Positions 7,382 to 51,076 are shown, counted from the stretch's first letter. The stretch is 64,000 bases of DNA from Chitinophaga pinensis (GCA_945887955.1 CAMCZO010000004.1:1-64000); one strand, 5' to 3'. Translations and numbers: made by a program. The notes: generated by a model not told the origin, from the sequence alone.

Positions 7382-10300
7382 TTGATTAATTCTGTAAAAT
7401 ATATTTATTTTTTTACTTTTTTTGCTTTATTTTCCTTAGCTCAAAATCAAACTAACAATTGGTATTTTGGTAATCAAGCTGGGCTTAGTTTTAATAGTAA
7501 TCCGCCAACAATTCTAACAAACGGTCAAATAATAAGTTCTGGTTGTAATGCTAGCATGTCTAACGCAAATGGTAATTTATTATTTTATACAAATGGACAA
7601 ACTGTTTGGGATCAAACCCATTCTGTAATGGCTAACGGAACTGGTTTATTAGGAAATGTTGGAGCCAGTCAAAATGTTATTATTTTAAAACAGCCTGGTA
7701 ATTTAAATTTGTTTTATATTATACATAGCCAACCAAATAATGTTAATGCATTAAGATTCTCTATAGTTGATATGAGTTTAGCTGCAGGTAACGGCTCAGT
7801 AACTTTAAAAAATCAGCAAATCAGCTTAATGTCTAGTACTAAATTAACTGCTACTAAACACTGTAATGGGGTTGATATTTGGATTGTTTCACAAGATTAC
7901 AATTGGGTTAATAATAATTTTAATAATTCTTACGTTTATCGATCTTACCTTTTAACATCTGCCGGAATTAATACCTTAACACCTGCAGTTTCAACCTTTA
8001 CAAATAATTTAAATAATTGGAATAATTGGAATGGATCGATGAAAATTTCACCTAATGGTAAAAAATTGGGTTTAGCTAGCCAAAATGGAAATAATTTTAA
8101 TAATGGCTCGGATAATTTTCAACTATATGATTTTGATAATACTACGGGTTTACTTTCTAATCGTTTTTCTTTATGGAATGGGCCTTTACAAAATAATAAT
8201 AACTATTGGGCATGGGGTTGTGAGTTTTCGCCCGATGGAACTAAATTTTATGGCACGCGATATAATGTTGGTGGTGGTTTGTATCAATGGAATTTATGTG
8301 CAGGTTCTAACACGGCTATTGCAGCATCACAAGCTACAATTGCTATTCCTGGCGTTCAATTATTTTCATTGCAATTAGCAAAAAATGGAAAAATTTATGT
8401 GGCAAGATATAATCAACAAACACTTGGCGTAATAAATAACCCAAATAATTTAGGCGGCGCTTGTAATTATGTTGATTTGGGGCAATCAATCGCACCAAAA
8501 ATTTGTTATTATGGCCTACCAAATTTTTTAGGTACTTATTTTATTAGTCCACCTCCCATTGGTCCTTTTACCTATACAGCTAATAATAATTTAGGTTGCC
8601 AAACCGCCTCGTTTACCCCACCCATAACACCAAATGCAACACTCGTTGGATGTGCTTCTTCGGGATACTCATTAACAAGCTTGCAATGGATTTTTGGCGA
8701 TCCAGCTTCTGGCGCAGCTAATACATCTACACTAACTTATCCTAGCCATGCTTTTACCACTTTAGGAACCTATACTACCCAATTAATTTTATTTTATAGT
8801 TGTGGGGGAGGAACTGATACATTAAAACAAGTCGTAAATATTAATCAGCCTTGTATTTCAGTTAGTAGTACTTCTATAACTTGTGCAAATTTGGGTTCAG
8901 CAACCGTATCTGCAACTGGAGGAATTGGTCCTTTTTCATATACATGGATGCCTTCAGGACAAACAAATTCAGTTGCAACTGGATTAAGCCCTGGCACCTA
9001 TACTTTAACGGTTTTTGATTTTGGAAATAATTTTACTTATACCGCTACAACTACTTTTAATTCATTAATTCCATTAACTGGTAATTTAAATAATACACCA
9101 AGTTTAACATGTAATGGGGTTAATACTGCTACCGCAAATTTTACGAATATTAGTGGAGGTTCTGGCTCTCAAAATTATGTTTGGACAAATGGTCCAAGCA
9201 CACAAACAACTTCTTATGCAAGTAATTTAAGTGCAGGTTTATGGAGTGTTTCAGTTGTTGATGCTCTTACCGGATGCTTTATTAATCAAATCTTTTTTAT
9301 CACACAACCTCCCGCATTGTCATTAAACGTTTCGGCTAATACAAATACCTCTTGTGCAGGAACTAATATTTTATTATCAGCAAATTGTAGCGGAGGAACA
9401 CCAGGTTTATTAACGCCCTATACATATTCTTGGACCTCTGGACCAATTTCAAATGGATACACGGTTACTTCATTAATAGGTGGAAATTTCACTTATTCTA
9501 TTCAAAGTGTTGATAGTCTTCAGTGTGTTACTTTAAATACCATAACTGTTAGTTTTATTTCTAACCCAGTTTTGAGTATTAGTGATTTTTCTATTTGTCC
9601 TTTTGAAACAGGCACTCTAACTGTAAGTGGAGCAAATTCTTATACTTGGAATAATGTACCAGGTATTAATACTTTTACTGATAACCCAATTGTTTCAACA
9701 CAATATTCTGTTATAGGTACTGCATTAAGTTGTACTTCAATTGCTACTGCGTCAATTATTTTAAAGCCAATACCAATACCAACTGTAACAAGTAATAGTC
9801 CCTTATGCAATAACCAAACACTCTATTTATATGGATTAGGAGGCGTTTCATTTCAGTGGACAGGCCCTTTAAATTTTAATAGTTTATTACAAAATGCGCA
9901 ATTAAGTCCTGCAGCTCCTAATAATTCAGGCGTTTATAATTACACAGTTACGGCAGCAAATTCTTGTACTGCTTCTGGTAGTTCTACTGTTGTTGTTAAT
10001 CCAACACCTACAATTTCAGCTTTTGGTTCTTCTGTTTGTGTAAGTCAAAATATTAATTTAAGCTCTAATTCTTTTGTTGGAGCAACGTATTTTTGGTCAG
10101 GCCCAAATGGATTTATGAGTTATTTACAAAACCCTATCATTAACGCACCCCTTCAGGTGTCTGCATCAGGTAATTATACTGTTTTTGCCACTAGTGCTGT
10201 TGGATGCGTAAATACAACTATAGCAAATGTATCAGTTACGGCTATGCCAATTCCGAGTTTTATTACAACTAGTCCAAAATGTGTTGGTACTGTATTAAAT

Positions 10301-11962
10301 TTTGATGCCTCTGCTACAATTGGAGCTATAAATTATTCTTGGTCAGGTCCAAATGGATTTAATTCAATTCAAATAAGTCCAATTATCTCAAATGTGATTT
10401 TACCCACTGCAGGCATTTACACATTAACTGTTTCAAAAGGGCCTTGCACAAATTCTATAAGCCATTCGGTTGTTATTAATGCCTTGCCAACCCCAACAGC
10501 AACTAGTAATAGTCCGGTTTGTGAAACAAAAAATAGTATTTTGCAGGTTAATGGAAATAATATAAGTTATTTATGGAATGGCCCAAATGGATTTAATAGC
10601 CCAGTTCAAAATCCAGTAATAAATAATAGTGCAATAATTAATTCAGGGCAATATCAAGTATTGGTAACAGACATTAACGGTTGTCAGGCAAGTTCATCAG
10701 TATCGTTGACAGTTATGCCTAATCCAGTTTTAATAACTCAAGGGGCATTAGTGTGTTTTGGAGAACCTGCAACATTAAAAGTGATTGGGGCTAATACGTA
10801 TAATTGGTTTGGGCCAATGGGATTTGGTGCTAATGGCTCTATCGCAACTGTAACTTCTGCAATTAATACGCAAGCATGGACTTATTATGTTATCGGTACT
10901 GCATTAAATACATGCACTTCTATATCTACCGCAACTGTTAACACCAAAACGCTTCCTATTGCAAGCCTTTCAGTTACTCCTCGTGTGTGTTTTAATGAAC
11001 AAATATTATTTAAAGGCGCTGGTGCTAATTATTATTATTGGAGTGGCCCATTAAATTATACTTCTGCAATTCAGAATCATTCATTAGTAGCAAATAATCA
11101 AGGAATGAGCGGAACTTATACTTTAATGGTTAAGGATTCTGCAAATTGTAAAGGTTATGCTACTGCAAATATTATAATTGATCCTTTGCCAATGGGAGGT
11201 ATAGATCAAAGTCCAATTAGTCATTGTGTGCCTTTTTGTTCAGATTTTAAATTTTATCCAAGTGGAGAAAATGTAATTGCAAATAGTATTTGGACTATGG
11301 GAACAAAAACTCAAACTTCAAGCGTTTTTAATTATTGTTTCAATACCGATGGAGATTTCACACTAAAAGGTGTTTTTACCGATAATCGAGGATGTATAAA
11401 TAAGTTGTCATTTCTTATAAAAGCTTATCCGGTTCCAGTTGCTGATTTTAGTTATTATCCAGAAAATCCATTAGAAAATAGAGACGAAGTTTATTTTACA
11501 AATAATTCTAAAGGGGATTTTCAAAATGATTGGTCTTGGTTAATTTTTAATGATAAGGATCAGGCATCAAACGAATTTAATTATTCTCATTTATTTAAAG
11601 ATGCCGGAACATTTAATGTTTTATTAATTACTAAAAACACTTTTGAATGTTCCGATTCGATAATCAAAACAATAAAAGTCGATTCAGATTTTTCAATTTT
11701 TGTGCCTAATACATTTACTCCAAACCAAGATAATAAAAATGAAACTTTTATAGCGGTTACTCGTGGCGTAAAATTTTATAATTTAACTATTTTTGATCGC
11801 TGGGGTCATATTGTTTTTGAATCAGAAGATACTTCAATTGGCTGGGATGGAACTTTTAAAGGAAATTCCTGCATCAATGGCATGTATGTGTGGAAAATTA
11901 AAGCATCTAGTTTTAATGGTTCAACAAAAGAATTAAATGGACATGTTTTATTGAATAAATAA
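7382..11962 (+). CDS. Very large secreted adhesin-like protein with Ig/PKD-type repeats and T9SS type B sorting domain
   Basis: A 1526-residue exported protein. The N-terminus is a signal peptide ending near SLAQ, started by TTG because the nearby ATG at 7359 is out of frame. Residues about 20-390 contain the NNWYFGNQAGLSF module followed by WD40/beta-propeller-like blocks, a common Bacteroidota arrangement. A PKD-like domain follows near 395-490. A long tract of about 80-residue Ig-like repeats then shows the recurring signature Y-x-W-x-GP-x-x-F-x-S-x-x-QNP. The last 90 residues form the gliding-motility-associated (CHU_C/type B) sorting domain, with VPNTFTPNQDN and FDRWGHIVFE. It is probably moved across the outer membrane by T9SS and kept at the surface. 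Its ligand is unknown. Confidence 0.9.
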   Translation: MINSVKYIYFFTFFALFSLAQNQTNNWYFGNQAGLSFNSNPPTILTNGQIISSGCNASMSNANGNLLFYTNGQTVWDQTHSVMANGTGLLGNVGASQNVIILKQPGNLNLFYIIHSQPNNVNALRFSIVDMSLAAGNGSVTLKNQQISLMSSTKLTATKHCNGVDIWIVSQDYNWVNNNFNNSYVYRSYLLTSAGINTLTPAVSTFTNNLNNWNNWNGSMKISPNGKKLGLASQNGNNFNNGSDNFQLYDFDNTTGLLSNRFSLWNGPLQNNNNYWAWGCEFSPDGTKFYGTRYNVGGGLYQWNLCAGSNTAIAASQATIAIPGVQLFSLQLAKNGKIYVARYNQQTLGVINNPNNLGGACNYVDLGQSIAPKICYYGLPNFLGTYFISPPPIGPFTYTANNNLGCQTASFTPPITPNATLVGCASSGYSLTSLQWIFGDPASGAANTSTLTYPSHAFTTLGTYTTQLILFYSCGGGTDTLKQVVNINQPCISVSSTSITCANLGSATVSATGGIGPFSYTWMPSGQTNSVATGLSPGTYTLTVFDFGNNFTYTATTTFNSLIPLTGNLNNTPSLTCNGVNTATANFTNISGGSGSQNYVWTNGPSTQTTSYASNLSAGLWSVSVVDALTGCFINQIFFITQPPALSLNVSANTNTSCAGTNILLSANCSGGTPGLLTPYTYSWTSGPISNGYTVTSLIGGNFTYSIQSVDSLQCVTLNTITVSFISNPVLSISDFSICPFETGTLTVSGANSYTWNNVPGINTFTDNPIVSTQYSVIGTALSCTSIATASIILKPIPIPTVTSNSPLCNNQTLYLYGLGGVSFQWTGPLNFNSLLQNAQLSPAAPNNSGVYNYTVTAANSCTASGSSTVVVNPTPTISAFGSSVCVSQNINLSSNSFVGATYFWSGPNGFMSYLQNPIINAPLQVSASGNYTVFATSAVGCVNTTIANVSVTAMPIPSFITTSPKCVGTVLNFDASATIGAINYSWSGPNGFNSIQISPIISNVILPTAGIYTLTVSKGPCTNSISHSVVINALPTPTATSNSPVCETKNSILQVNGNNISYLWNGPNGFNSPVQNPVINNSAIINSGQYQVLVTDINGCQASSSVSLTVMPNPVLITQGALVCFGEPATLKVIGANTYNWFGPMGFGANGSIATVTSAINTQAWTYYVIGTALNTCTSISTATVNTKTLPIASLSVTPRVCFNEQILFKGAGANYYYWSGPLNYTSAIQNHSLVANNQGMSGTYTLMVKDSANCKGYATANIIIDPLPMGGIDQSPISHCVPFCSDFKFYPSGENVIANSIWTMGTKTQTSSVFNYCFNTDGDFTLKGVFTDNRGCINKLSFLIKAYPVPVADFSYYPENPLENRDEVYFTNNSKGDFQNDWSWLIFNDKDQASNEFNYSHLFKDAGTFNVLLITKNTFECSDSIIKTIKVDSDFSIFVPNTFTPNQDNKNETFIAVTRGVKFYNLTIFDRWGHIVFESEDTSIGWDGTFKGNSCINGMYVWKIKASSFNGSTKELNGHVLLNK

Positions 11963-16949: not shown

Positions 16950-17639
16950 ATTAAAAAAAAAATATTTATTATTACTCTTATTTTAGAAAGCTTTTTGTTT
17001 TTAGATAAAGTTTCATGCCAAGTAGTTCGAGATGATGAGCAGATTATAGCTAATGTAAATTTAACTCAAATTTTGAGAGTAAATATTACTAATGGTGGTA
17101 ATATCAATTTTTCTTTTAATTCTATTAATGATTATAAAAATGGAGTAGGTGCTTTATCAAGTGCTACAGGTGTGGGTGCTTCTTCTAATAATTCAACACC
17201 TTTTTTTAGAACTGATTTTTCAGTTTCATCATCATCAAACTGGTTTTTAAATTTTGGAGCAGATCAAGCTACTTTTATTGGAACCGACAATCCTGCTAAT
17301 TTATTGCCTTTAAATAATGTTGGTTTTACTTTAATCGAAAATGGAGTTTATACTCCCGGTGCCGGTAGTAATTTAATAAGTCCACTAACAGGTGATTTTT
17401 CAGCAACAGCTGTTTCAGCTCTTTTGGCTTACCCTCAAACTTTAATTAACAAAGGTGCTTTAACAAATGCGGGAGATATTTTAGATAATAATTTTACAAT
17501 ATTTTGGCAATGCGGAACCGCCTCCCCTCAAGGCTTAGCTACTAATCCAATGAATACGATTAATATTATTAATTTACCCTCAAGCCCTGCTCCTGATAAT
17601 TATATAGCTAACATTATATTTGAATTAGAAGCTCAATAG
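16950..17639 (+). CDS. Secreted subunit-like protein A (paralogue of the protein at 20494-21219)
   Basis: I know no named family. From the first ordinary start (TTG, 16995) the product lacks a signal sequence. Reading the open frame upstream gives IKKKIFIITLILESFLFLDKVSCQ-type residues, a full signal peptide that would start at an ATT codon at 16950. The mature region shares long blocks with the 20494 gene: GGNIxFxFNSINDY, G-A-x-QATFxGTDxPxN, LPLNNVG, LDNxFxxFWQCGTA, and the ending IFELEA. All-beta composition and a hydrophobic final strand fit a fibre or pilin-like subunit. A TAAATTTG -7-like element lies at 16934-16941. It is followed after 13 bases by a second, more divergent paralogue. 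Confidence 0.72.
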   Translation: MKKKIFIITLILESFLFLDKVSCQVVRDDEQIIANVNLTQILRVNITNGGNINFSFNSINDYKNGVGALSSATGVGASSNNSTPFFRTDFSVSSSSNWFLNFGADQATFIGTDNPANLLPLNNVGFTLIENGVYTPGAGSNLISPLTGDFSATAVSALLAYPQTLINKGALTNAGDILDNNFTIFWQCGTASPQGLATNPMNTINIINLPSSPAPDNYIANIIFELEAQ

Positions 17640-17652
17640 CAGATTAATAATT

Positions 17653-18282
17653 ATGAATAAAAATATAATAATTTGTAAGTTTTTAATACTATTTGTTTTT
17701 TTTAATTCAAATTTATTTTCACAATTTAATTCGGCTAGAATTGCAATTTTGTCTGGTGGTGTTGTTAATTTTAATTTTAAAACTATACAAGATTATAAAA
17801 ACGGAATTGAATCAAATAATGCCGTTATTGGCATTTCAATGTCAGATTTAAATCCTGGTTTCCCCATAGGTCATTCTATAGTAGATGGTTTTAAATTATA
17901 TTTTAGCACTACCGCTTCAAATATAATTGGAGATGCTGGTAACACTATCCCTTTATCTGCAATTCAAGCTTCAGCTTCTAACATTTCTGGTTTTGCTGGC
18001 GCTACTTTTAATGCATACCAAGATTTAACTGGCCCTATTACATTAAATTCTTCCGCATCTCCTCCATTAGGTAATGTTTTAATGGAATATGATGATGCTT
18101 TAATTCCTCTTACATCCGGAGCTTTTTCAATTAATACCAATGCCAATAAGATTCGAATTTATTTTCAGTGTGGAATGAATGCAGCACCATCAAATAAGCT
18201 TTTGGGAAGCACTGCAGATTATTATTCTGTACCCATTGAATTGTGGCTTTGGCCTCAATGTAATTCGGTTGATTGCCCCTAA
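17653..18282 (+). CDS. Secreted subunit-like protein B, divergent paralogue
   Basis: The 209-residue product has a signal peptide (cleavage near LFSQ, residue 24). It keeps the family hallmark in altered form: ILSGGVVNFNFKTIQDYKNGI near residues 33-53, and IRIYFQCGMNAAP near the C-terminus in place of FWQCGTA. It lacks the QATFxGTD block and ends in a short Cys-containing tail (PQCNSVDCP). It lies 13 bases after paralogue A and is presumably in one transcript with it. A minor or tip subunit is a reasonable inference from this divergence, but nothing proves it. Confidence 0.72.
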   Translation: MNKNIIICKFLILFVFFNSNLFSQFNSARIAILSGGVVNFNFKTIQDYKNGIESNNAVIGISMSDLNPGFPIGHSIVDGFKLYFSTTASNIIGDAGNTIPLSAIQASASNISGFAGATFNAYQDLTGPITLNSSASPPLGNVLMEYDDALIPLTSGAFSINTNANKIRIYFQCGMNAAPSNKLLGSTADYYSVPIELWLWPQCNSVDCP

Positions 18283-18304
18283 AATTAATTGAGCATTAAA
18301 ATTA

Positions 18305-19474
18305 TTATTTTAATTCAAGACCGTTTTTATAATAATATTCCTTGGAAAGTTTACCATTCGTTGGATTAAATTCTTTTTGTAAGCCATCTAATTTGCCATT
18401 TAAATAATTTTTAATACTTAATAATTTATTATTATTATCATAAAATTTCCAAATACTTTCCATCTTGTCACTATTAAAAGCACCTTCTTTTTCTAGAACT
18501 CCATTATCATAATAAAACTTGAAGTTTCCTTGAGCTAAATCTTTAGAATAAACCCCATCTTGTTTCATTTTTCCATTTTCATAATAAATATACCATTTAC
18601 CATCAAGTGAGTCAGAAACATAGTTTCCTTTACTATATAAATGTCCTGTAGGATAAAAAGAAAGCCATTCTCCTATTTTTTTTCCTAATACGTAATTTCC
18701 TTTTTGTTTTATAGTATCATTTTCGTAAAATTCGACACAAATGCCTTCTATGTTATTCATGATATAAGCACACTTTAATTTGATGTGTTTATTATCATGA
18801 TAACTAGTTAGCTTCCCATTTAACAGCCCTCTTAAATAGTAACATTCGAGTTGTTTAAAATTCTTTTTTTCTTTATAAAAGTTTAAAAATAAACTATCTA
18901 AAAGCCCATTTTTTTTGTAATAAATTGAACTTATATTTCCATTTTCATAGTATGTTTCTAATTTGCCATCTTCTATCCCTTTTACATATTTTTTACGATA
19001 ATTCATTTCCCCTTCTTCATAAAAACCAATTGCTTCTCCATTTAAAATTCCCATTTCATAATTTTTAATTTCATTAAGTTTTTCGTTCTCATAAAAAACT
19101 TTACTTTCACCGTTTAATACATCATTTTTATAATTTGAAATTTCGAATAATTTCCCGCTTGGGTAGTATGTTTTAGCTAATCCATTTAATTGATTGTTTT
19201 TAAAAACTAAATTTTCTTTTATTGATCCATTCTCGTAATAAATAATCCAAACACCATCTAATTCGCCATTTAAATAAGATCCTTTTTGAAAAGTTACTCC
19301 ATTTTTATGGTAAATAATGTACTGCCCTTCTCTAATAAATTTATCTCCTATTTTTTTTTCAAAAAAAACTTCTTTTTTTTGTTTACGTTCTGCATCGTAC
19401 CAATTAGTAATTTCTTTTTGTGCCTTTAAATAAAAACTTGCACAAAGAGATAGAAGTAAAAATAAAAATTTCAT
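18305..19474 (-). CDS. Exported MORN-variant repeat protein
   Basis: A 389-residue protein with a signal peptide (cleavage near FYLKAQ, residue 19). The rest is almost entirely 20-23-residue repeats of the form Y-x-NG-x-x-x-x-x-x-x-Y-x-NG-x-L-(N/D)-G, at least a dozen copies. This is the MORN-variant repeat that automatic annotation often calls YwqK-type antitoxin. There is no toxin nearby, so that name would mislead. It starts 9 bases after the stop of the chaperone-like gene and so forms an operon with it. It may be a periplasmic or surface scaffold of the same system. Confidence 0.82.
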   Translation of the reverse strand: MKFLFLLLSLCASFYLKAQKEITNWYDAERKQKKEVFFEKKIGDKFIREGQYIIYHKNGVTFQKGSYLNGELDGVWIIYYENGSIKENLVFKNNQLNGLAKTYYPSGKLFEISNYKNDVLNGESKVFYENEKLNEIKNYEMGILNGEAIGFYEEGEMNYRKKYVKGIEDGKLETYYENGNISSIYYKKNGLLDSLFLNFYKEKKNFKQLECYYLRGLLNGKLTSYHDNKHIKLKCAYIMNNIEGICVEFYENDTIKQKGNYVLGKKIGEWLSFYPTGHLYSKGNYVSDSLDGKWYIYYENGKMKQDGVYSKDLAQGNFKFYYDNGVLEKEGAFNSDKMESIWKFYDNNNKLLSIKNYLNGKLDGLQKEFNPTNGKLSKEYYYKNGLELK

Positions 19475-19483
19475 TTTTTTTGA

Positions 19484-20296
19484 TTATTTAATATCAATGA
19501 TAAGCTGAGCTCCCTCTATATCAGTGTTGTGCCCGTAATCTAAAAGAGCAGCTAAAGCAAATTTGCCTTTTGGTAAATCTGATGGCAATTTTAATACTAA
19601 TTGTCTTTTTGCATCTGGTAAAACTTTAATAGTTTCAGCATTAAATTTAGTCTCAATACCCGTAGAAGTATTAGCTAGGTTTAAAAAAACTTTTGCATTA
19701 ATTAATTTATCTCCAACATTACTTATTTCTACACTAAAAGATCGTACTTTATCCCCTTTTTTTGTTATTTCTTTAAACTTTTGTATAGTTGCCATGTAAT
19801 TATTATTTAAACTTGGCGATTGAAAAACTTGAATAACAATTCGGGGTGAAATTAAAACTCCAGTAGCAACCGCTTTGTCTGGCTTGCTAAAATCAGATTG
19901 TTCTTTACTTGTTTGTACATAAATTAGCACCCATTTTGAAGAAAATCCATCACTCGGAACAGTCATGGTTACATCTATTTGTTTGGTTTCGTTGGGGTTT
20001 AATTCTAATAATGATGGGCTGATTGAAATCCAATTGGCACAAGATCTTTTACTTGTACCGGGCGGCATTCTCAATTTGTTACCTAATGAATCAATCGAGT
20101 AATCTGACATTTTTAACTCAAAAGCTTGTTTTTTATCAGAATGATTGGTTAATGAAACTTTTTGTGTGCCAATTTCATTTGGATTAAGTTTAAATGAAAT
20201 TAAAGCAGGTGACACTTCAAAGTCTTGAGCTGGCAATATAAAACTTGAGAATAAAAATATAAAATATAATTTAAACCCATTTATTTTTTTTATCAT
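19484..20296 (-). CDS. Periplasmic pilus-chaperone-like protein
   Basis: A 270-residue exported protein with a signal peptide (cleavage near LPAQ, residue 23). It opens with DFEVSPALISFKLNPNEIG-type text, then a VSLTNHSDKKQAFELKM strand pair, WISISPSLLELNPNETKQIDV, and after about residue 150 a second Ig-like domain (FSVEISNVGDKLINAKVFLNL). This layout of two Ig-like domains, with a motif of the type 'P-x-x-x-x-L-x-P-x-x-x-x-Q-x-x-x-x-N', is shared by fimbrial chaperones and the DUF916 WxL-binding group. It lies divergent to the major subunit gene from a back-to-back promoter region and directly precedes the MORN protein gene. I infer subunit binding in the periplasm. Confidence 0.75.
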   Translation of the reverse strand: MIKKINGFKLYFIFLFSSFILPAQDFEVSPALISFKLNPNEIGTQKVSLTNHSDKKQAFELKMSDYSIDSLGNKLRMPPGTSKRSCANWISISPSLLELNPNETKQIDVTMTVPSDGFSSKWVLIYVQTSKEQSDFSKPDKAVATGVLISPRIVIQVFQSPSLNNNYMATIQKFKEITKKGDKVRSFSVEISNVGDKLINAKVFLNLANTSTGIETKFNAETIKVLPDAKRQLVLKLPSDLPKGKFALAALLDYGHNTDIEGAQLIIDIK

Positions 20297-20310
20297 TTAT
20301 ATTTTTTAGA

Positions 20311-20342
20311 CAAAGATATCTTAAATTTTAAAAACACACAAA
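20311..20342 (-). promoter_or_regulatory. Promoter of the chaperone-like/MORN operon
   Basis: On the minus strand, TTTG (20342-20339), 20 bases, then TATCTTTG (20318-20311) gives a full match to the Bacteroidota -33/-7 consensus. The ATG follows 14 bases after the -7 box. Confidence 0.65.
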
Positions 20343-20439
20343 AAACTAAGGATTAAAAAAAAAATACGATATTAAAACGATTAAAAATGACTTTCAAAAA
20401 TTTTTAATGTTTTTTTATAACATTAATTTAATGTTAATA

Positions 20440-20470
20440 TTTGTTTTATTAATTTAAATGTCTAGCTTTG
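20440..20470 (+). promoter_or_regulatory. Strong consensus promoter of subunit gene C
   Basis: TTTG at 20440-20443, exactly 19 bases, then TAGCTTTG at 20463-20470. Spacing and both boxes match the Bacteroidota consensus. The leader to the ATG at 20494 is only about 16-18 bases and is A-rich. Confidence 0.72.
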
Positions 20471-20493
20471 TATAAATAAATAAATAAAATGCC

Positions 20494-21219
20494 ATGAAAA
20501 AAATCATTTTACCAATTTTCCTTTTTTGTTTGATTTTCTCAAATATACAAACAAACGCACAAGCAGTTAGAGATAGAGGTATCATTCCAGTTGCTGTTAA
20601 CCTTAATTTAGTTTTAAGATTAAACATTATAGATGGCGGTAATATCGAATTTGTATTTAATAGTATAAACGATTATAGCCTTGGAATGGGAGCACAAGCT
20701 GCTGTCTTAGGAACTGGCGCTAATGCAGCAGCTGCTAGAGTTGGAACCGGTGTTGGAACTACTCCTCTTGCTGCTAATTTGATGTACAGAACTCGTTTTA
20801 CTGTTTCTGCATCAAGAACCTGGTTGTTAACTTATGGTGCAGAGCAAGCTACTTTTATGGGAACAGATTTACCTACTAATACATTGCCTTTAAACAATGT
20901 TGGTCTAACTATGGTTTCTGCAGGTTTAAATTTTAATGCGGCAACTGGTTTAAATTCTACACCTACAACTAATTTTACAACTTTAGTAACGGCACCTTTT
21001 TCTTTAACACAGTTTCCTACTGTTTTAATAACAGGAATTGCCGGTGTTTCAAATGCTGGTGGTGAACTAGATAATGAATATGTTCTTTTTTGGCAATGTG
21101 GTACTGCCAATGCAACTGGCGTTACAGCAATGAATGCAGTGTCTCTTTTAGCCGCAGGTACAAGTCCTGCAGCTGATAGATATGTAACTAATGTGTTATT
21201 TGAATTAGATGCCTTATAA
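20494..21219 (+). CDS. Secreted subunit-like protein C (probable major subunit)
   Basis: The 241-residue product has a classic signal peptide (MKKIILPIFLFCLIFSNIQT, cleavage near NAQA). The mature part is rich in Ala, Thr, Gly and Asn. It carries the same blocks as protein A: RLNIIDGGNIEFVFNSINDY, GAEQATFMGTDLPTN, LPLNNVG, LDNEYVLFWQCGTA and the end VLFELDAL. It has its own consensus promoter and a strong T-tailed terminator, while neighbours do not, so high and separate expression is likely. It sits between the divergent chaperone-like gene and the usher-like gene. I read it as the major building block of a surface fibre; the function is inferred from locus structure. Confidence 0.78.
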   Translation: MKKIILPIFLFCLIFSNIQTNAQAVRDRGIIPVAVNLNLVLRLNIIDGGNIEFVFNSINDYSLGMGAQAAVLGTGANAAAARVGTGVGTTPLAANLMYRTRFTVSASRTWLLTYGAEQATFMGTDLPTNTLPLNNVGLTMVSAGLNFNAATGLNSTPTTNFTTLVTAPFSLTQFPTVLITGIAGVSNAGGELDNEYVLFWQCGTANATGVTAMNAVSLLAAGTSPAADRYVTNVLFELDAL

Positions 21220-21240
21220 TTTAAAGCGAATTTAAAATTT

Positions 21241-21275
21241 AAAGCAGCAAGTATAAAACTTGTTGCTTTTTTTTT
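21241..21275 (+). terminator. Rho-independent terminator after subunit C
   Basis: Stem AAAGCAGCAAGT / ACTTGTTGCTTT with a short loop (ATAAA) and one G-U pair, followed by a run of nine T. Confidence 0.85.
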
Positions 21276-21416
21276 ATCTAGTAATTCTCAAAAATATTTG
21301 TTAAATAAAAAGTTAATTGGTTTTTATTTATATAAATACCCTTCAGCTATTGAATTTATAGATAAATTATTGTTTTTTTTGACTACTTTCGTTACTTAAT
21401 TTAAGTTAAAAATTTT

Positions 21417-24400
21417 ATAAAAAAAATTGATTACATATTCATCTTTTGTTTGTTAATATTGTCTTTTCAAAGCCAAACGGCTTTAGATTCGACTAAAAAT
21501 AGTCAAAAAGATACTCTCTTGCAACCAATTAATAAAGATATAAAGGTTGATAATACTTCCTTATTACAAAGAACCAATTCTGTACCTAATAATCGAATAA
21601 ATGCCAACGATACCATTACGGCAAATCGAAACACGGTGCTAAAAGATACTGTTGTAATGAGTTTTTTAAAATATAAAATATCGCATTCAGCAGATTCGTC
21701 TATATTTAATGTTTTAAAAATTATTAATTATAAAAAAAATAAATTTGATGGTTTAATTGAAACCAAATTACCAGAGGGTTGGCACGGCATTGGTTTGCCA
21801 ATGGGTAAAGTTAGTATTGAGCCCGGCGATTCGTTTTTTATCCCTTTTCGATTAATTGAGCCAAATAAAGTTTATGGCGGTCAGGCATATGTAATTACTT
21901 CATTTCTTAAATCAAATAAAGAAAAATATTTTGGAACCTTCTTTATTGATGTACCTATTAAAGATGATTGGTTTATGAAGGTAAATTCTAACACAATATA
22001 TTTTAATGAGTTATATGATTTAAAAGATTTTAAAATTTTGTTAAGTAATAAAGGAAATGTTAGTGAATTGATTAAATTAACTTTTGAATCAGGAAAATTA
22101 TTAAATTTAATTGGTTTTAATGAGTTAAATAATTTTGTTTACATTACTTTACCTGCTGGTTCTGATACGACTTTAAATTATAATGTTTCTTACAAAAAAG
22201 ACTTAAATAATAATGAAAGTTACCTTGATAATATTGAAAGAGAAACTACTTTAAGAGTAATAGCATCAAATGGTAAAACAAAAAGAGAAACCATTCAGTT
22301 TCGAAAGGTAAGAAGTTATTTTGTTTTGCAAAAAAATCAATCTCAATCGCCTCTTAATTTTAATTTACAGGTTGGCGATTTACTAAGCTCCTCTCAGCCA
22401 TTTATATTTGGAAGTGTTTACGGGTCAATACTATTTACCAAGAAAAGAGAATTAAGTTATCTTTTTGGATTACAAAATCAAGTTTTTAATACGCCTAATA
22501 TTAATACAGGTAGCTTAATACAAAGTTTGCCGCTAAGAATAAATTATAAAGAACCAAAATATAACATTAGTGTTGGTAATTTAGTATTAAACAATTCTTT
22601 TGGAGGAACTATTGGAACAGGTATTGTTGCTGAACTTAATTTAATTAAAAACAATATTTTTAAAATTGGTGCTGTAAAAAATTTAACACCAAATTCAAAT
22701 GCTGGTTTAATGATAGATCATAAAATATCAATACTAAATAAAATAAAATTAAATACTAATATTTTGTATATCAACAATTTATTTTTGAATAATAAAAATA
22801 ATACATTTATGGGAAATATTGGTACGGGATATTCTTTTTATAAACACCATAGATTGAATGGCATTATTGGAATAAGTCGTGTGAAATATTTTGGAGTAAT
22901 TGCACAAGGGTTAAATTCGAATGATACCACTATTGTTGGAATAAATTACAGATTAAGTTATTTAGGTTCATGGGATAAATTAAATATTTCAGTTTTAACA
23001 TCTAAAAATATAAACGGAATTTTTAGTAAAAACATTTATTACGAAGCTAATGCCGGTTACCAAATAACTAAAGTTAGTAAAATTAGATTTATTTTAAATA
23101 GAAATGTTTTAAATTCATCTTCTTCATTTCAAACTTATTTATTAAATAATAATAATAATAAAGCTCAAATTGATTTTGTTCGATTAAGTTATTTATCAAC
23201 TTTTAGGTCTTTATTTTATGAAACCGGCCTAATGTATAATGGGAATGAACAAAATAACTACAATGCAACAAATAATTTTACTAACATTTACTCAAATCGT
23301 TTAAAAGCATGCTTTTTAAATGTTAAACATAAAATTTCATCTCAAAAATCTATTTCTGCCAACATATCTATAGGTTACAGAAATAATTATAATATAAGTT
23401 TTACTAATTCTAATTATCCAGTTATTAAGCGAGAAGTTTTTAATTCAATCATTAGCGCTAATTATTTTAATAAATTTTTTAATATCAATTTTGGTTCATC
23501 ATACGAACCTTATTATTTTAATTCAGGAAATGGTATTTATACCAAAATTGAAACACAATCAATATTTATTCGTCCAAAATATGAACGTTATTATTTAGAT
23601 AGAACGGTTTTATTATCCATTTTCGGAAATTATTATTTACAATTACCTTCTAATAGCGAGAACATTTCGATTAACCCAAGAATTGATTGGTTATTTAAAA
23701 ATGGATTAACTGCTAATGCTCGACTAAATATAAATCAAAATAGCACACGTAATCCTGAAACTGGTGTAAAAAGTGTGTTTAGAAATATTAATTTGATTTT
23801 AGGGATAACAAAATCATTTGATTTAGAACAACCACGAAGTAAATATTATAATTTAAAAGTAATTTGTTATCATGATTTAAATGGTAATAAAATAAGGGAC
23901 GAAAATGAACCATTTATTCCAAATATTTTAGTTGGTATTAAAAATAAAACTAACAATAATTCTCAAACTGAAGAAGAACAAAGTAATTTTTCAGAAATTG
24001 AATTGATGACCAATATAAATGGAGAAATAAATTATATAAATATGCCCTTTGGTAATTATTTATTAAACTTTTTACCAGTTGTAAATTTAAAAGATTTGAT
24101 TTGTGCAAATGGTGCTGAACAAGATTTGTATATGAATTCAAATTATAATTTGTATGTTCCGTATTCTTTGTCGTATCGGGTTAAAGGTTACGTAAAATTA
24201 AACCGCGATACGCTAAGTTCATTAGGTAAAATTTCATTAAAAGGGGTGCGAATAACAGCAAAGGGTTCTAAAGGAGAAGAATTTGCGGCATTAACAGATG
24301 AAAATGGGTTTTATGCAATTGATATAAAAAATGCTGGACAATACTTAGTAAAAGTGAATAATGTTTTTGGGAATAAATTTTTAATAAATTATGATGAACA

Positions 24401-25058
24401 GATGGTTGATTTTAATGGTTTAAAGCTGTTTGAATTAGATTTTGTTTTTAATGAAACAAAACGAAAGGTAAATTTCTCAAATTCTGAGGGTTATAAATTT
24501 AAATTGGGAGAAAATAATACAGATAATAATGCGGAAGATAATACTGAAGATAATACAGAAAATAACACAGAAAATAACACAGATAATAATAACAATAAAA
24601 ATAACAAGTTACTTCAACGATTTAATTCTAATAAAAATAAATCAGATATTTCTAAAAAAAGAAATGATTCAATCAATAATGTAATTGCTACCAATGATCG
24701 AAAAATAAAAGTATCAAAACTTGATAGCATAACAAATATATTAAATTCGAATATTAGCGATAATAATAGAAATGATTTAGAGACACAAAAATTAAAGCTT
24801 TTGGCACAAGAGATTAGAAACCAATTAGGCATTAATTTTAGAGTTGCCATTGAAACACTTCCTATTAATATTTCACCAAATAGTTTGTTAAGACAAATGA
24901 TAAGATTAAATGTTATAGATACCACATTGAATAATGATGGTTCAAAAACTTTTTTTACGGGTTCATTTAAAACTGTTATAGAAGCCGAACAAGAAGCTCT
25001 CAATTATAGAAAAAAGGGATTAAAAAATGCAAAAATTAGTATTGATAAAACTAAATAA
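21417..25058 (+). CDS. Large outer-membrane usher-like barrel protein with SdrD-type, Cna-B-type and SPOR-like domains
   Basis: Unrecognised as a whole. The first ordinary start (TTG, 21450) cuts the signal peptide. The frame is open upstream and gives KKIDYIFIFCLLILSFQSQ preceded by an ATA codon at 21417, which I take as start (about 1213 residues). Order: Ig-like domains (about 60-300), including GDSFFIPFRLIEPNKVYGG; a long barrel-like region (about 320-810) of many aromatic-rich strands; an SdrD-type segment DLNGNKIRDENEPFIPN near 819; a Cna-B-type beta domain near 920-1010 (ALTDENGFYAIDI); an Asn/Glu/Asp-rich linker near 1031-1065; and a C-terminal SPOR-like domain with FFTGSFKTVIEAEQEALNYRKKG. 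Barrel plus inserted beta domains recall chaperone-usher platforms. Neighbouring subunit and chaperone-like genes support that reading. Confidence 0.7.
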   Translation: MKKIDYIFIFCLLILSFQSQTALDSTKNSQKDTLLQPINKDIKVDNTSLLQRTNSVPNNRINANDTITANRNTVLKDTVVMSFLKYKISHSADSSIFNVLKIINYKKNKFDGLIETKLPEGWHGIGLPMGKVSIEPGDSFFIPFRLIEPNKVYGGQAYVITSFLKSNKEKYFGTFFIDVPIKDDWFMKVNSNTIYFNELYDLKDFKILLSNKGNVSELIKLTFESGKLLNLIGFNELNNFVYITLPAGSDTTLNYNVSYKKDLNNNESYLDNIERETTLRVIASNGKTKRETIQFRKVRSYFVLQKNQSQSPLNFNLQVGDLLSSSQPFIFGSVYGSILFTKKRELSYLFGLQNQVFNTPNINTGSLIQSLPLRINYKEPKYNISVGNLVLNNSFGGTIGTGIVAELNLIKNNIFKIGAVKNLTPNSNAGLMIDHKISILNKIKLNTNILYINNLFLNNKNNTFMGNIGTGYSFYKHHRLNGIIGISRVKYFGVIAQGLNSNDTTIVGINYRLSYLGSWDKLNISVLTSKNINGIFSKNIYYEANAGYQITKVSKIRFILNRNVLNSSSSFQTYLLNNNNNKAQIDFVRLSYLSTFRSLFYETGLMYNGNEQNNYNATNNFTNIYSNRLKACFLNVKHKISSQKSISANISIGYRNNYNISFTNSNYPVIKREVFNSIISANYFNKFFNINFGSSYEPYYFNSGNGIYTKIETQSIFIRPKYERYYLDRTVLLSIFGNYYLQLPSNSENISINPRIDWLFKNGLTANARLNINQNSTRNPETGVKSVFRNINLILGITKSFDLEQPRSKYYNLKVICYHDLNGNKIRDENEPFIPNILVGIKNKTNNNSQTEEEQSNFSEIELMTNINGEINYINMPFGNYLLNFLPVVNLKDLICANGAEQDLYMNSNYNLYVPYSLSYRVKGYVKLNRDTLSSLGKISLKGVRITAKGSKGEEFAALTDENGFYAIDIKNAGQYLVKVNNVFGNKFLINYDEQMVDFNGLKLFELDFVFNETKRKVNFSNSEGYKFKLGENNTDNNAEDNTEDNTENNTENNTDNNNNKNNKLLQRFNSNKNKSDISKKRNDSINNVIATNDRKIKVSKLDSITNILNSNISDNNRNDLETQKLKLLAQEIRNQLGINFRVAIETLPINISPNSLLRQMIRLNVIDTTLNNDGSKTFFTGSFKTVIEAEQEALNYRKKGLKNAKISIDKTK

Positions 25059-28184: not shown

Positions 28185-29201
28185 TTGGATATTAATCGTT
28201 ACATAACGTTTGTTTGTTTATTGCTAGGGGCAAATTATTTTTATGGACAAGACATTCACTTTTCACAATTTTCGGGTTCTTTATTAAATATTAGTCCAGG
28301 ATATACTGGAATGTTTAATGGAGATTATCGCCTAAGTGCAATTTATAGAAGTCAATGGCAATCGGTACCGGTTTCATATTCAACATTTAATATGAATGGA
28401 GAAATACGGGTTAAACCTAAAAAATTAAATAAAGACATGTTGGGTTTTGGTTTAATGTTTAATAATGATAAAGCAGGAGATGCTTATTATGGAAGCAATC
28501 AGATATATTTAAATGGAACTTATATTTATTTAGCAAAACCCGATAGTAGTTTAATTATAACCTTAGGCTTAAATATGGGTTATTGTCAGGTAGGTTTTGA
28601 TTATACTAAAATGACATTTAATAATCAGTTTGATGGTTTTGCGTTTAACAATAGCTCATCAAGTGGAGAGAAATTTTATTGGACCAGTTCAAATTTTGTA
28701 GATGTAAATTTTGGTTCGGTTATTCAATATGTTTTTAAAAATAAAAATAAATTAATTTATGGTTTAGGTGTTCATCACATTAATAAGCCAGAAATTACAT
28801 ATCAAGGTAACGATTTAAGCCAACTTAATTTTAAATTAACGAATTGTTTAAGTTTTTCAATGCCCCTCAGCATAAAAACTGATTTAATTGCCGAAGCTTT
28901 GATTACTGTTCAAGGTAATAATTATGAATTAGTTCCACATGCATCTATTAAGTATCATATGCTTGGTAATTATAACAAAGCTGTGTTAGCTGGATTATGT
29001 TGGCGCTCGCGCGACGCTGTTATTGTTAGGTTTGGATATCATTATAAAACGATGCAAAGCGGCATTTCTTATGATATTAATGTAAGCGATTTTAATAGGG
29101 CCACCAATAGAAGAGGTTCTTTAGAACTATTTATTAATTATGTTTTTAATTTCAAATCTAATTTTACACCAAAAAAACGGACTTGCCCTTTATTTATGTG
29201 A
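28185..29201 (+). CDS. PorP/SprF-family type IX secretion outer-membrane protein
   Basis: Outer-membrane barrel of the T9SS/gliding family, thought to help secretion or anchoring of specific type B substrates. The 338-residue product starts at TTG and has a signal peptide ending near YFYGQ. It shows family landmarks: DIHFSQFSGSLLNISPGYTGMFNGDYRLSAIYRSQW near the N-terminus, FGLMFNNDKAGDAYYG, and SGISYDINVSDFN with a terminal NYVFNFK strand. It overlaps the next gene by one base (TGATG). Such PorP plus OmpA-type pairs often serve a particular T9SS cargo; the 1526-residue type B protein in this window is a candidate cargo but is not adjacent. Confidence 0.92.
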   Translation: MDINRYITFVCLLLGANYFYGQDIHFSQFSGSLLNISPGYTGMFNGDYRLSAIYRSQWQSVPVSYSTFNMNGEIRVKPKKLNKDMLGFGLMFNNDKAGDAYYGSNQIYLNGTYIYLAKPDSSLIITLGLNMGYCQVGFDYTKMTFNNQFDGFAFNNSSSSGEKFYWTSSNFVDVNFGSVIQYVFKNKNKLIYGLGVHHINKPEITYQGNDLSQLNFKLTNCLSFSMPLSIKTDLIAEALITVQGNNYELVPHASIKYHMLGNYNKAVLAGLCWRSRDAVIVRFGYHYKTMQSGISYDINVSDFNRATNRRGSLELFINYVFNFKSNFTPKKRTCPLFM

Positions 29202-31177
29202 TGAATTTAAATAAAAGACAAATATTTTTATTTTTTTGTTTTGTTTTTGCAAATTTTTGTTTGCTTGCCCAATCAAATTCTAGCCTTAGATCGCAAGCAC
29301 AAACGGCTATTATTTTAAAAGATTGGTATGGCGCCTCACAATGCCTTAATCGATTATATTTAAGAGATAGTTTGGATGTTAAGTTGTGCTATTTATATGC
29401 AGATGTGAGTAGAAAAAATTTGGATTTAGACATTGCTTTAAATTTATACACAAAAGTGACTACTCATGTAAACATAAAAAAATATCCTTTAACTTATTAT
29501 TGGATCGGACAAATTCTTAAAACTAAAGGCGATTATAAAGAAGCAAAAAAGTGGTTTATTAAATTCTCGAAAATTAAATTAGAAGATTATAAAAGAAAAC
29601 AATCTGAAATCAAATACTATTTGGTAAAGTCTAAAATAGAGATAGAAGCTTGTGAAATGTCTCAGATTCTATTAAAAAATAAATCAGATATAACTCAAGT
29701 TCATTTAGAATCTATTATCAATACAAATCAAAGTGAGTTTGCAGCATTTGAAAAAGATAGTACTATTTATTTTTCATCTATTAAACCAAATCTTAAAATC
29801 GATTTAGTTGACCCAATTTATAGTAAAATTTATACTTCAGATTATAGAAAGTCGAAATGGCAGAAAGTTAAAAGTATGGATACTTTATTTAATTCAAGTG
29901 TTTTTCACAATGCGAATATTTGTTTTAATTCAGATTCAAAACAAATGATTATTTCTCGTTGTAAAGAAAAAAATAGCGAAGAGTTTTTATGTGATTTATA
30001 TTTAAGTGAATTTAAAAATAATCATTGGCAAATACCTACCAAAATAGACGAACCAATTAATTTTCCAAATTCTAATACTAGTCAGGCAAATTTTGGCATG
30101 CTCAATGGAAAACAAGTTTTGTTTTTTTCGAGTAATAGAATAGGCGGGGAGGGAGGGATGGATATTTGGTATTCTTTTCAAAATAATTATGGTGTTTTTG
30201 AAAAACCAATTAACGCTGGAAAAAAAATTAATACACCCGAAGATGAAATTACGCCATGGTTTAATGTTAAAGAAAATGTTTTGTTTTTTAGTAGCACTTA
30301 TCACCCTGGTTTAGGAGGTTTTGATGTTTTTAAAACTGAGTTTAAAAATAATCAATTTAGTGAGGTTGTAAATGCAGGTTGCCCAATTAATACTGGTTTT
30401 AATGATGTTTATTATTCTTCTTCTTTTTCAAATAATGGAAATGATTTTATTTATTTATCAAGTAACAGAGAGGGATCTTTTTTCGAAGATAAATTAAATT
30501 GCTGCAACGATATATATCGGTTTAATTTAAATAATCAAATAAAGCCGGTTTTAAAATTAGATTCTATTTCTTTAAAAAAAGAACTGTTAAAATTATTAGT
30601 GCCATTAACACTTTATTTTCATAACGATGAGCCAGATTCTAAAACACTAAACGTATCAACTAAAAAAAATTACGAAACCTCTTACAACGATTATAAAGAA
30701 TTAGTGCCCATTTATTTAAATCAATTTTCAACTAATTTAAATGGCTCGGCTAAACAAAATGCTTTAAATTTAATTAATAATTTTTTTCAAGACAGTGTTG
30801 ATTCAGGTATGGAAGATTTAAAACGATTTTCTGATTTGTTAGAATCTGTTTTAAAAAATGGCGAAACTGTAAAAATTACTCTAAAAGGTTATTGTAGTCC
30901 TTTAGCAAGCACAGATTATAATATTAATTTAGCTAAACGAAGAATAAGTAGTTTGAAAAATTTTTTTTATGAAACAAAAAATGGTTTTTTTAAAGAATAC
31001 ATACAAAATGGAATTGGCATTGGAGGTAAAATTATTTTTGATGATCTAGATGTTGGAGAATTAACAGCGAGTAAAGCGAGTGATGATTTTAAAGATAAAC
31101 GAAATGCGGTTTATTCTCCCTCGGCTTCATCTGAAAGAAAAATTCAAATTATTGCGGTGAGTTTTGAAAATAAATAA
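29201..31177 (+). CDS. PorE-like OmpA-family protein with TPR and PD40 propeller
   Basis: A 658-residue exported protein. The ATG at 29201 overlaps the PorP stop (TGATG) and starts a good signal peptide (cleavage near LLAQ). TPR-like helices follow (about 30-140). A PD40 beta-propeller region with VLFFSSNRIGGEGGMDIWYS and LFFSSTYHPGLGGFDVFKT lies at about 165-445. The C-terminal OmpA-type peptidoglycan-binding domain (about 540-658) contains KGYCSPLASTDYNINLAKRR. The family usually has a regulatory beta domain between propeller and OmpA, which seems reduced here. The likely role is linking the PorP-type barrel to peptidoglycan. Confidence 0.9.
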   Translation: MNLNKRQIFLFFCFVFANFCLLAQSNSSLRSQAQTAIILKDWYGASQCLNRLYLRDSLDVKLCYLYADVSRKNLDLDIALNLYTKVTTHVNIKKYPLTYYWIGQILKTKGDYKEAKKWFIKFSKIKLEDYKRKQSEIKYYLVKSKIEIEACEMSQILLKNKSDITQVHLESIINTNQSEFAAFEKDSTIYFSSIKPNLKIDLVDPIYSKIYTSDYRKSKWQKVKSMDTLFNSSVFHNANICFNSDSKQMIISRCKEKNSEEFLCDLYLSEFKNNHWQIPTKIDEPINFPNSNTSQANFGMLNGKQVLFFSSNRIGGEGGMDIWYSFQNNYGVFEKPINAGKKINTPEDEITPWFNVKENVLFFSSTYHPGLGGFDVFKTEFKNNQFSEVVNAGCPINTGFNDVYYSSSFSNNGNDFIYLSSNREGSFFEDKLNCCNDIYRFNLNNQIKPVLKLDSISLKKELLKLLVPLTLYFHNDEPDSKTLNVSTKKNYETSYNDYKELVPIYLNQFSTNLNGSAKQNALNLINNFFQDSVDSGMEDLKRFSDLLESVLKNGETVKITLKGYCSPLASTDYNINLAKRRISSLKNFFYETKNGFFKEYIQNGIGIGGKIIFDDLDVGELTASKASDDFKDKRNAVYSPSASSERKIQIIAVSFENK

Positions 31178-50524: not shown

Positions 50525-50545
50525 TAAATATTGTTAAATTTACAA

Positions 50546-51076
50546 ATGCCAAAATTGCACCATGCAGATAATCCTATACAGTTTTATACTGCTACTATAT
50601 TGGAATGGCAAAAGCTACTAAAACCGAATAAGTACAAACAAATTATTGTAAATAGTTTAGCATTTTTAGTAAAAGAAAATCGTACGAAAATTTACGCCTT
50701 TGTAATAATGGATAATCACATCCATCTTATTTGGCAGGGAACTAAACTACATTCTTTAAAACACTCGCAATTGAGTTTTATGAAATACACAGCACAACAA
50801 ATAAAATTTGATTTAGAAAAACATCATCCAAACGTATTACCATGTTTTCTAGTTGAAGCAAAAGATAGGAAATATCAGTTTTGGGAAAGGAATGCATTAT
50901 CAGTAGATATAATGAGTTCGGAGGTTTTTATTCAAAAGTTAAACTATATTCATAAAAACCCTGTAAGAGCTAAACTTTGCTTAATTGATACAGATTATAA
51001 ATATTCGACTGCGAAACATTATAATGAAATGCAACATGAATTTGATTTTTTAGAGCCCTACAATCAACAACTTTGA
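50546..51076 (+). CDS. REP-associated tyrosine transposase (RAYT, Y1/IS200-like)
   Basis: Single-strand DNA transposase of the HUH family. The ATG at 50546 gives 176 residues with the catalytic HIH at 58-60 in IMDNHIHLIW and the conserved KLNYIHKNPVRAKL near 131-144. In well-known RAYTs a tyrosine follows the WxR motif. Here the matching spot (FWERNA, 112-118) has Asn, so the nucleophile may be Tyr110 or Tyr134. The stop codon ends exactly at the base before the right terminal repeat. The frame has no disruption. Confidence 0.88.
   Translation: MPKLHHADNPIQFYTATILEWQKLLKPNKYKQIIVNSLAFLVKENRTKIYAFVIMDNHIHLIWQGTKLHSLKHSQLSFMKYTAQQIKFDLEKHHPNVLPCFLVEAKDRKYQFWERNALSVDIMSSEVFIQKLNYIHKNPVRAKLCLIDTDYKYSTAKHYNEMQHEFDFLEPYNQQL

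Follow-up and report, generated by a model that had tools for sequence, protein, structure and literature searches.

Do the six open reading frames (ORFs) at positions 16950-25058 of a 64,000-nucleotide stretch of Chitinophaga pinensis DNA (GCA_945887955.1, CAMCZO010000004.1:1-64000; this whole stretch is called the window) encode a surface fibre together with the machinery that assembles it? A first-pass annotation, made from the sequence alone, had proposed a chaperone-usher-like fibre system with a new type of usher. Gene conservation, chaperone and subunit homology, the presence or absence of an N-terminal extension in the subunits and the architecture of a barrel protein were computed, and the fibre idea, with fibre formation and secretion as its predicted outcome, is supported. 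We consider it likely that the cassette encodes all parts of a pilus system that follows the chaperone-usher principle, a variant pathway that would build TLP-1-like fibres. The six ORFs are real and carry the following features (Ig, immunoglobulin-like; aa, amino acids; kaa, thousand amino acids):

16950..17639, + strand: main-type fibre subunit A; inferred ATT start, signal peptide, mature N-terminus Q (family alignment A1)
17022..17075, + strand: N-terminal extension of subunit A, putative donor strand; of fixed length across the family
17653..18282, + strand: subunit B, pilin-like domain without N-terminal extension, putative tip or first subunit; 41 homologues adjoin a subunit and a barrel gene (alignment A2)
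18305..19474, - strand: exported protein with MORN repeats, encoded 9 bp downstream of the chaperone; PF07661
19484..20296, - strand: two-Ig periplasmic chaperone; hhalign to E. coli K-12 chaperone-usher chaperones, PDB match EfmWxLIP1
20494..21219, + strand: main-type fibre subunit C; AlphaFold2 model, best Foldseek matches TLP-1b and TLP-1a
20563..20616, + strand: N-terminal extension of subunit C (aa 24-41), putative donor strand; I31-V33-V35-L37 alternation, unpaired in the monomer model
21417..25058, + strand: outer-membrane barrel protein, putative usher-like assembly platform; inferred ATA start, AlphaFold2 model, 37-sequence family A4
21651..22196, + strand: pair of chaperone-like Ig domains at the N-terminus of the barrel protein; DSSP of the model, hhalign to the chaperone profile
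22278..23816, + strand: beta-barrel without an inserted plug, ~26 long strands over aa 314-800; DSSP of the model
23844..24455, + strand: two C-terminal beta domains of the barrel protein (SdrD_B / CarboxypepD_reg type); Pfam matches in relatives, model
24834..25055, + strand: putative C-terminal SPOR-like segment of the barrel protein (peptidoglycan-binding type), assigned from relatives

The gene order, subA> subB> <MORN <chap subC> barrel>, includes two main subunits. The first-pass coordinates stand, but the starts at 16950 and 21417 hold only if ATT and ATA, respectively, act as start codons. Each yields a signal peptide, and the first ATG, GTG or TTG falls within that signal peptide; because they are needed for a full signal peptide, ATT and ATA are probably the true starts. 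The cassette proteins start with a Sec-type signal peptide, which in the subunits ends before the mature Q. A Pfam scan found no family that covers the subunits, only SdrD_B/CarboxypepD_reg type matches on the window barrel protein and only weak Ig-like matches on the chaperone. Exported proteins of this kind might instead belong to the known fibre and export routes of Bacteroidota, as Type V (FimA/Mfa) pili or as cargo of the type IX secretion system (T9SS), and T9SS/gliding-type genes lie nearby as judged by eye. However, the signal peptides end A-Q with no lipobox cysteine and the P_gingi_FimA family is absent from the genome, which ruled against Type V pili, and no T9SS C-terminal signal model matched, which ruled against T9SS cargo; we regard either origin as highly improbable.

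Co-occurrence of the gene families in other genomes had been suggested as a check, and the neighbourhood proved strongly conserved. Scanning 84,980 species genomes with subunit C as query gave 46 related loci from Flavobacteriales, Bacteroidales, Marinilabiliales and other orders, nearly all with the same neighbours. The recurrent cassette comprises a donor-strand-type subunit, a second subunit, a barrel protein of ~1 kaa, a chaperone and a MORN protein. In 17 loci its genes are arranged as <MORN <chaperone | subunit> subunitB> barrel>, in 4 the chaperone-MORN pair is placed after the barrel gene, and in 12 the fetched piece holds the subunit-subunitB-barrel unit alone. Where the chaperone is unlinked, all ten whole genomes searched encode exactly one full-length copy (E about 1e-98 to 1e-117), which adjoins its MORN gene in 10/10. 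Because the chaperone-MORN pair is present even when unlinked, the cassette is two modules that occur together. The grouping of its genes is far beyond chance. The trait is patchy, with the barrel in 4 of 37 genomes of the sampled genus, this genome included. The exported MORN-repeat protein in the chaperone operon was correctly recognised at first pass (nine stretches of PF07661, E 3e-39). It adjoins the chaperone in the window-type system only; none was seen in the sister systems described below.

The ORF at 19484-20296, annotated as a two-Ig chaperone-like protein, is present, and profile comparison shows homology of both its domains to FimC-type chaperones. Against seven E. coli K-12 chaperones (FimC, SfmC, ElfD, YadV, YehC, YraI, YfcS) hhalign gave 94.3% over 209 columns covering both Ig domains, while none of 40 column-shuffled decoys exceeded 1.2% and reversing the profile gave 0.4%; hhalign probabilities here are for single pairs, judged against decoys made in this analysis and not against a calibrated database. 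The aligned regions include the strand preceding the domain linker (PRIVIQVFQSP versus SRIKLYYRP) and LLDYG versus INDYG. PapD_N matches weakly in 3/30 family members, and PF00345 has no match in the own genome by Pfam. The nearest solved relative in a single-profile search is EfmWxLIP1 (E 4e-8, full length), and therefore the chaperone is placed, by sequence, in a wider two-Ig group that includes WxLIP proteins. That relationship, the WxLIP_PGBD matches in 12/30 members and the peptidoglycan contact suggested by a SPOR domain would suit a WxL-like surface complex, in which the two-Ig protein would bind peptidoglycan or a partner in the WxLIP manner and the small beta proteins would be non-polymeric and displayed by a barrel anchor. 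Yet the homology reaches FimC-type chaperones too, in both domains, fold comparison pairs the subunits with fibre proteins (TLP-1, CFA/I), they have a donor-strand-like extension, and sister loci contain a tip-adhesin-like gene; we find such a complex improbable.

The three exported all-beta proteins are paralogues, as first annotated: subunits 16950 and 20494 are clear ones (46% identity) and 17653 is more distant (profile comparison 99.7%). The sequence blocks noticed in them are real, GGNI.F.FN being near-invariant and ATF.GTD and W(Q/R)CGTA majority consensus across 45 relatives. An AlphaFold2 model of subunit C (45 aligned sequences) has a pLDDT of 82, with the segment following the signal peptide unpaired in the monomer. 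In a Foldseek search of the PDB with this model, TLP-1b (E 1e-5) and TLP-1a (E 1.8e-5) rank first with probability 1.0, followed by CfaB of CFA/I (E 6e-3); lower down, the donor-strand pilins CooA, CS17, FimA/FimI and SafA are intermixed with unrelated beta proteins. TLP-1a and TLP-1b are also the two best PDB sequence matches (177,635 sequences) both for profile A1 of the window family (E 0.04/0.14) and for profile A5 of a divergent sister family (E 0.18/0.43), which were built from different sequences, and the two alignments share their N-terminal register. Not the single E-values but the fact that both separate profiles and the fold agree makes homology of the subunits to TLP-1a/b convincing. 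Subunits and TLP-1a/b (PDB 9ikj, 9ikk) have in common an N-terminal strand followed by an F.F..I..Y..G motif and a similar length (236-241 aa), with about 14% identity and a TM of about 0.5. We take TLP-1a/b to be the fibres from filtered pond water of the CryoSeek study, the 2024 work of Wang and colleagues, where they reportedly use donor-strand exchange (donor n+4); to our knowledge, neither the makers nor the assembly route of these fibres is known. Searching 296 genomes of the phylum with a 58-aa TLP-1 fragment gave no match, a result of little weight since a single short sequence is insensitive. Profile A1 found only the own genome in the same set, because the sister pilins are too divergent, and a comparison of the pilin profile with E. 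coli pilins aligned only signal peptides or short stretches.

Main subunits and subunit B differ at the N-terminus. In main subunits 30-35 residues separate the mature Q from the first core strand in 44/44 measurable members, exactly 30 in 38 of them, and this extension carries alternating hydrophobic positions (I, V, V, L); sequence and model point to it as a putative donor strand. In subunit B the corresponding distance is 15-22 residues in 31/41 members, in which the extension is absent. The other 10/41 have 30-34 residues before the first core strand; eight of these ten were inspected, seven being a Cys-x-x-Cys Flavobacteriales form without the alternation and one (L042) having a mis-assigned mature end. 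A tip (first) subunit would be expected to lack the extension, and subunit B is accordingly the putative tip.

The AlphaFold2 model of the barrel protein (37 sequences; pLDDT 78, pTM 0.54) comprises, by DSSP, a signal peptide, two Ig domains (79-260), ~26 long strands (314-800) and two beta domains (810-1013). The first-pass annotation was right about a barrel and about SdrD/Cna-B-type domains but not about their insertion: they lie C-terminal to the barrel (aa ~810-1013), and the two Ig domains precede it. SdrD_B is found in 36/37 and CarboxypepD_reg in 34/37 relatives, a C-terminal SPOR domain in 9/37 and OmpA in 1/37, while SPOR has no Pfam match in the window copy. The C-terminus is placed in the periplasm because relatives carry SPOR or OmpA there, a prediction that agrees with the even strand number. 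A combined barrel profile matched the chaperone profile at the N-terminal Ig pair (hhalign 93.7%). The likeness of this pair (21651-22196) to the chaperone would suit capture of a chaperone copy by the platform. By Foldseek, FimD and PapC are the best outer-membrane matches of the barrel, aligning over about 800-870 columns with E 3.5e-10 to 4e-8, and BtuB comes after them (E 1e-6); tandem-Ig ciliary proteins also match and were set apart. The combination that the first-pass annotation had named as refuting it, a predicted barrel without usher features plus an unconserved neighbourhood, was not what the analysis found. Barrel-profile matches in giant 4-8 kaa ORFs (G131, G034, G013, G183, G064) covered the SdrD-like domain only and were discarded.

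In six genomes of the phylum sample (G002, G012, G068, G095, G210, G273) a true match to the barrel occurs that does not belong to the window-type system. In these sister loci a related chaperone adjoins or lies near a barrel protein of roughly 930-950 aa, whose homology to the barrel of the window spans 893 columns. The same loci encode one to five small pilins as well as a protein of roughly 290-480 aa in which the C-terminal part is a pilin domain and the N-terminal part is extra, a layout like that of FimH-type adhesins and in that respect tip-adhesin-like. Pilin homology across the systems reaches 96-98% by hhalign (shuffled decoys at most 0.5%). A third group (L092-L096, in G282, G175, G235, G038 and G250) consists of chaperone-barrel-multi-pilin operons whose chaperones are related to window-type ones (98.8%). 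Its barrels, of 1000-1455 aa, have C-terminal domains (SPOR/SdrD-type) in common with the barrel of the window (95.2%, against 0.7% for the reversed control), and some weakly match PF00577 (E 3e-4). This group is a possible bridge to canonical ushers and not proof of descent. Three more distant relatives (L079, L081, L097) have a chaperone, a protein of ~1000 aa and several exported beta proteins of small size, those tested lacking a Pfam family, and adjoin response regulator/histidine kinase genes. Upstream of the pilin operon, loci L072, L075 and L078 have another pilin-like gene, which is shorter (about 140-155 aa), and, by eye, an AraC-like regulator.

The weak PF00577 matches and shared C-terminal domains of third-group barrels beside related chaperones, and the lead of ushers among outer-membrane fold matches, could mean that the system is a canonical chaperone-usher system whose barrel belongs, though divergent, to the PF00577 usher family. 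This we doubt strongly, as PF00577 matches 0/37 barrel proteins and gives nothing above cut-off in the own genome or in any of 296 phylum genomes, and the barrel has no inserted plug; PF00577 was rejected as the barrel family. For the new usher type of the first-pass annotation, ushers are the best outer-membrane fold matches, but homology to PF00577 is not detectable by sequence. Several results also weigh against a chaperone-usher-type pilus building TLP-1-like fibres. Between the barrel and E. coli ushers hhalign gave 1.3% (TonB control 0.1%), that is, no sequence homology; TM-scores to ushers are <=0.36 among the matches listed, with TonB receptors higher on TM; and DSSP of the model places no plug domain within the barrel. 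The TLP-1 sequence matches are weak one by one (E 0.04-0.43), and in one Flavobacteriales lineage subunit B carries an N-terminal segment of 30-34 residues, although not an alternating one.

For the proposed pilus we infer strand complementation, export, fibre formation and a tip role as follows. Subunits A and C (shaft) and B (tip) would reach the periplasm via Sec, with cleavage of their signal peptides, and the two-Ig chaperone (19484-20296) would bind each subunit, a donor strand completing its unfinished Ig-type fold. The 1.2-kaa barrel protein would recruit chaperone-subunit complexes, probably via its N-terminal Ig domains, and subunits would pass outward via its ~26-strand pore. As they do, the chaperone strand held by one subunit would give way to the N-terminal extension of a subunit that follows it. 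Subunit B, without extension, would be exported first and become the tip, and repetition of A/C would give the TLP-1-like fibre. The C-terminal beta domains and SPOR-type tail may hold the platform in the periplasm and at the peptidoglycan.

On balance we lean towards a Bacteroidota-native class of chaperone-usher pathway, with a platform unrecognisable as a PF00577 usher, as the missing assembly machine of the orphan freshwater TLP-1 type fibres. If so, Bacteroidota gain a chaperone-usher-type pilus, a route of which no earlier description was found in the literature searched, and the orphan fibres TLP-1a/b gain a probable source phylum, chaperone and export pore. It also suggests that a chaperone together with donor strands, as a principle, has been paired with more than one kind of outer-membrane barrel. 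A 2018 paper states that no chaperones or ushers were known in P. gingivalis (PMC5789003).

By eye, the cassette is flanked by a large gliding/T9SS-type surface protein (7382-11962) and a PorP/SprF-like and OmpA-like pair (28185-31177), and a REP-associated tyrosine transposase-like gene lies at 50531-51076.

Among known systems, the WxL/WxLIP complexes of Firmicutes (EfmWxLIP1, PDB 9i25) have a two-Ig protein clearly related to the chaperone; they are Gram-positive, lack an outer-membrane barrel and have a different function there. Type V pili (FimA/Mfa1) occur in the same phylum and their fibres are thought to use strand complementation, but they are made from protease-processed lipoprotein precursors, with no chaperone or usher described (PMC5789003). 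From chaperone-usher pili (type 1/Fim, CFA/I, archaic CupE) the window system differs in pilins unrecognisable by sequence, in a barrel outside PF00577 (without the inserted plug of the large, 24-strand usher barrel), in its two N-terminal Ig domains, SdrD/CnaB-type C-terminal domains and SPOR tail, and in the extra MORN protein. It resembles them in a homologous chaperone, pilin-like folds and a barrel flanked by N- and C-terminal beta domains, and the sister loci in an operon of pilins, chaperone, barrel and two-domain tip-like protein.

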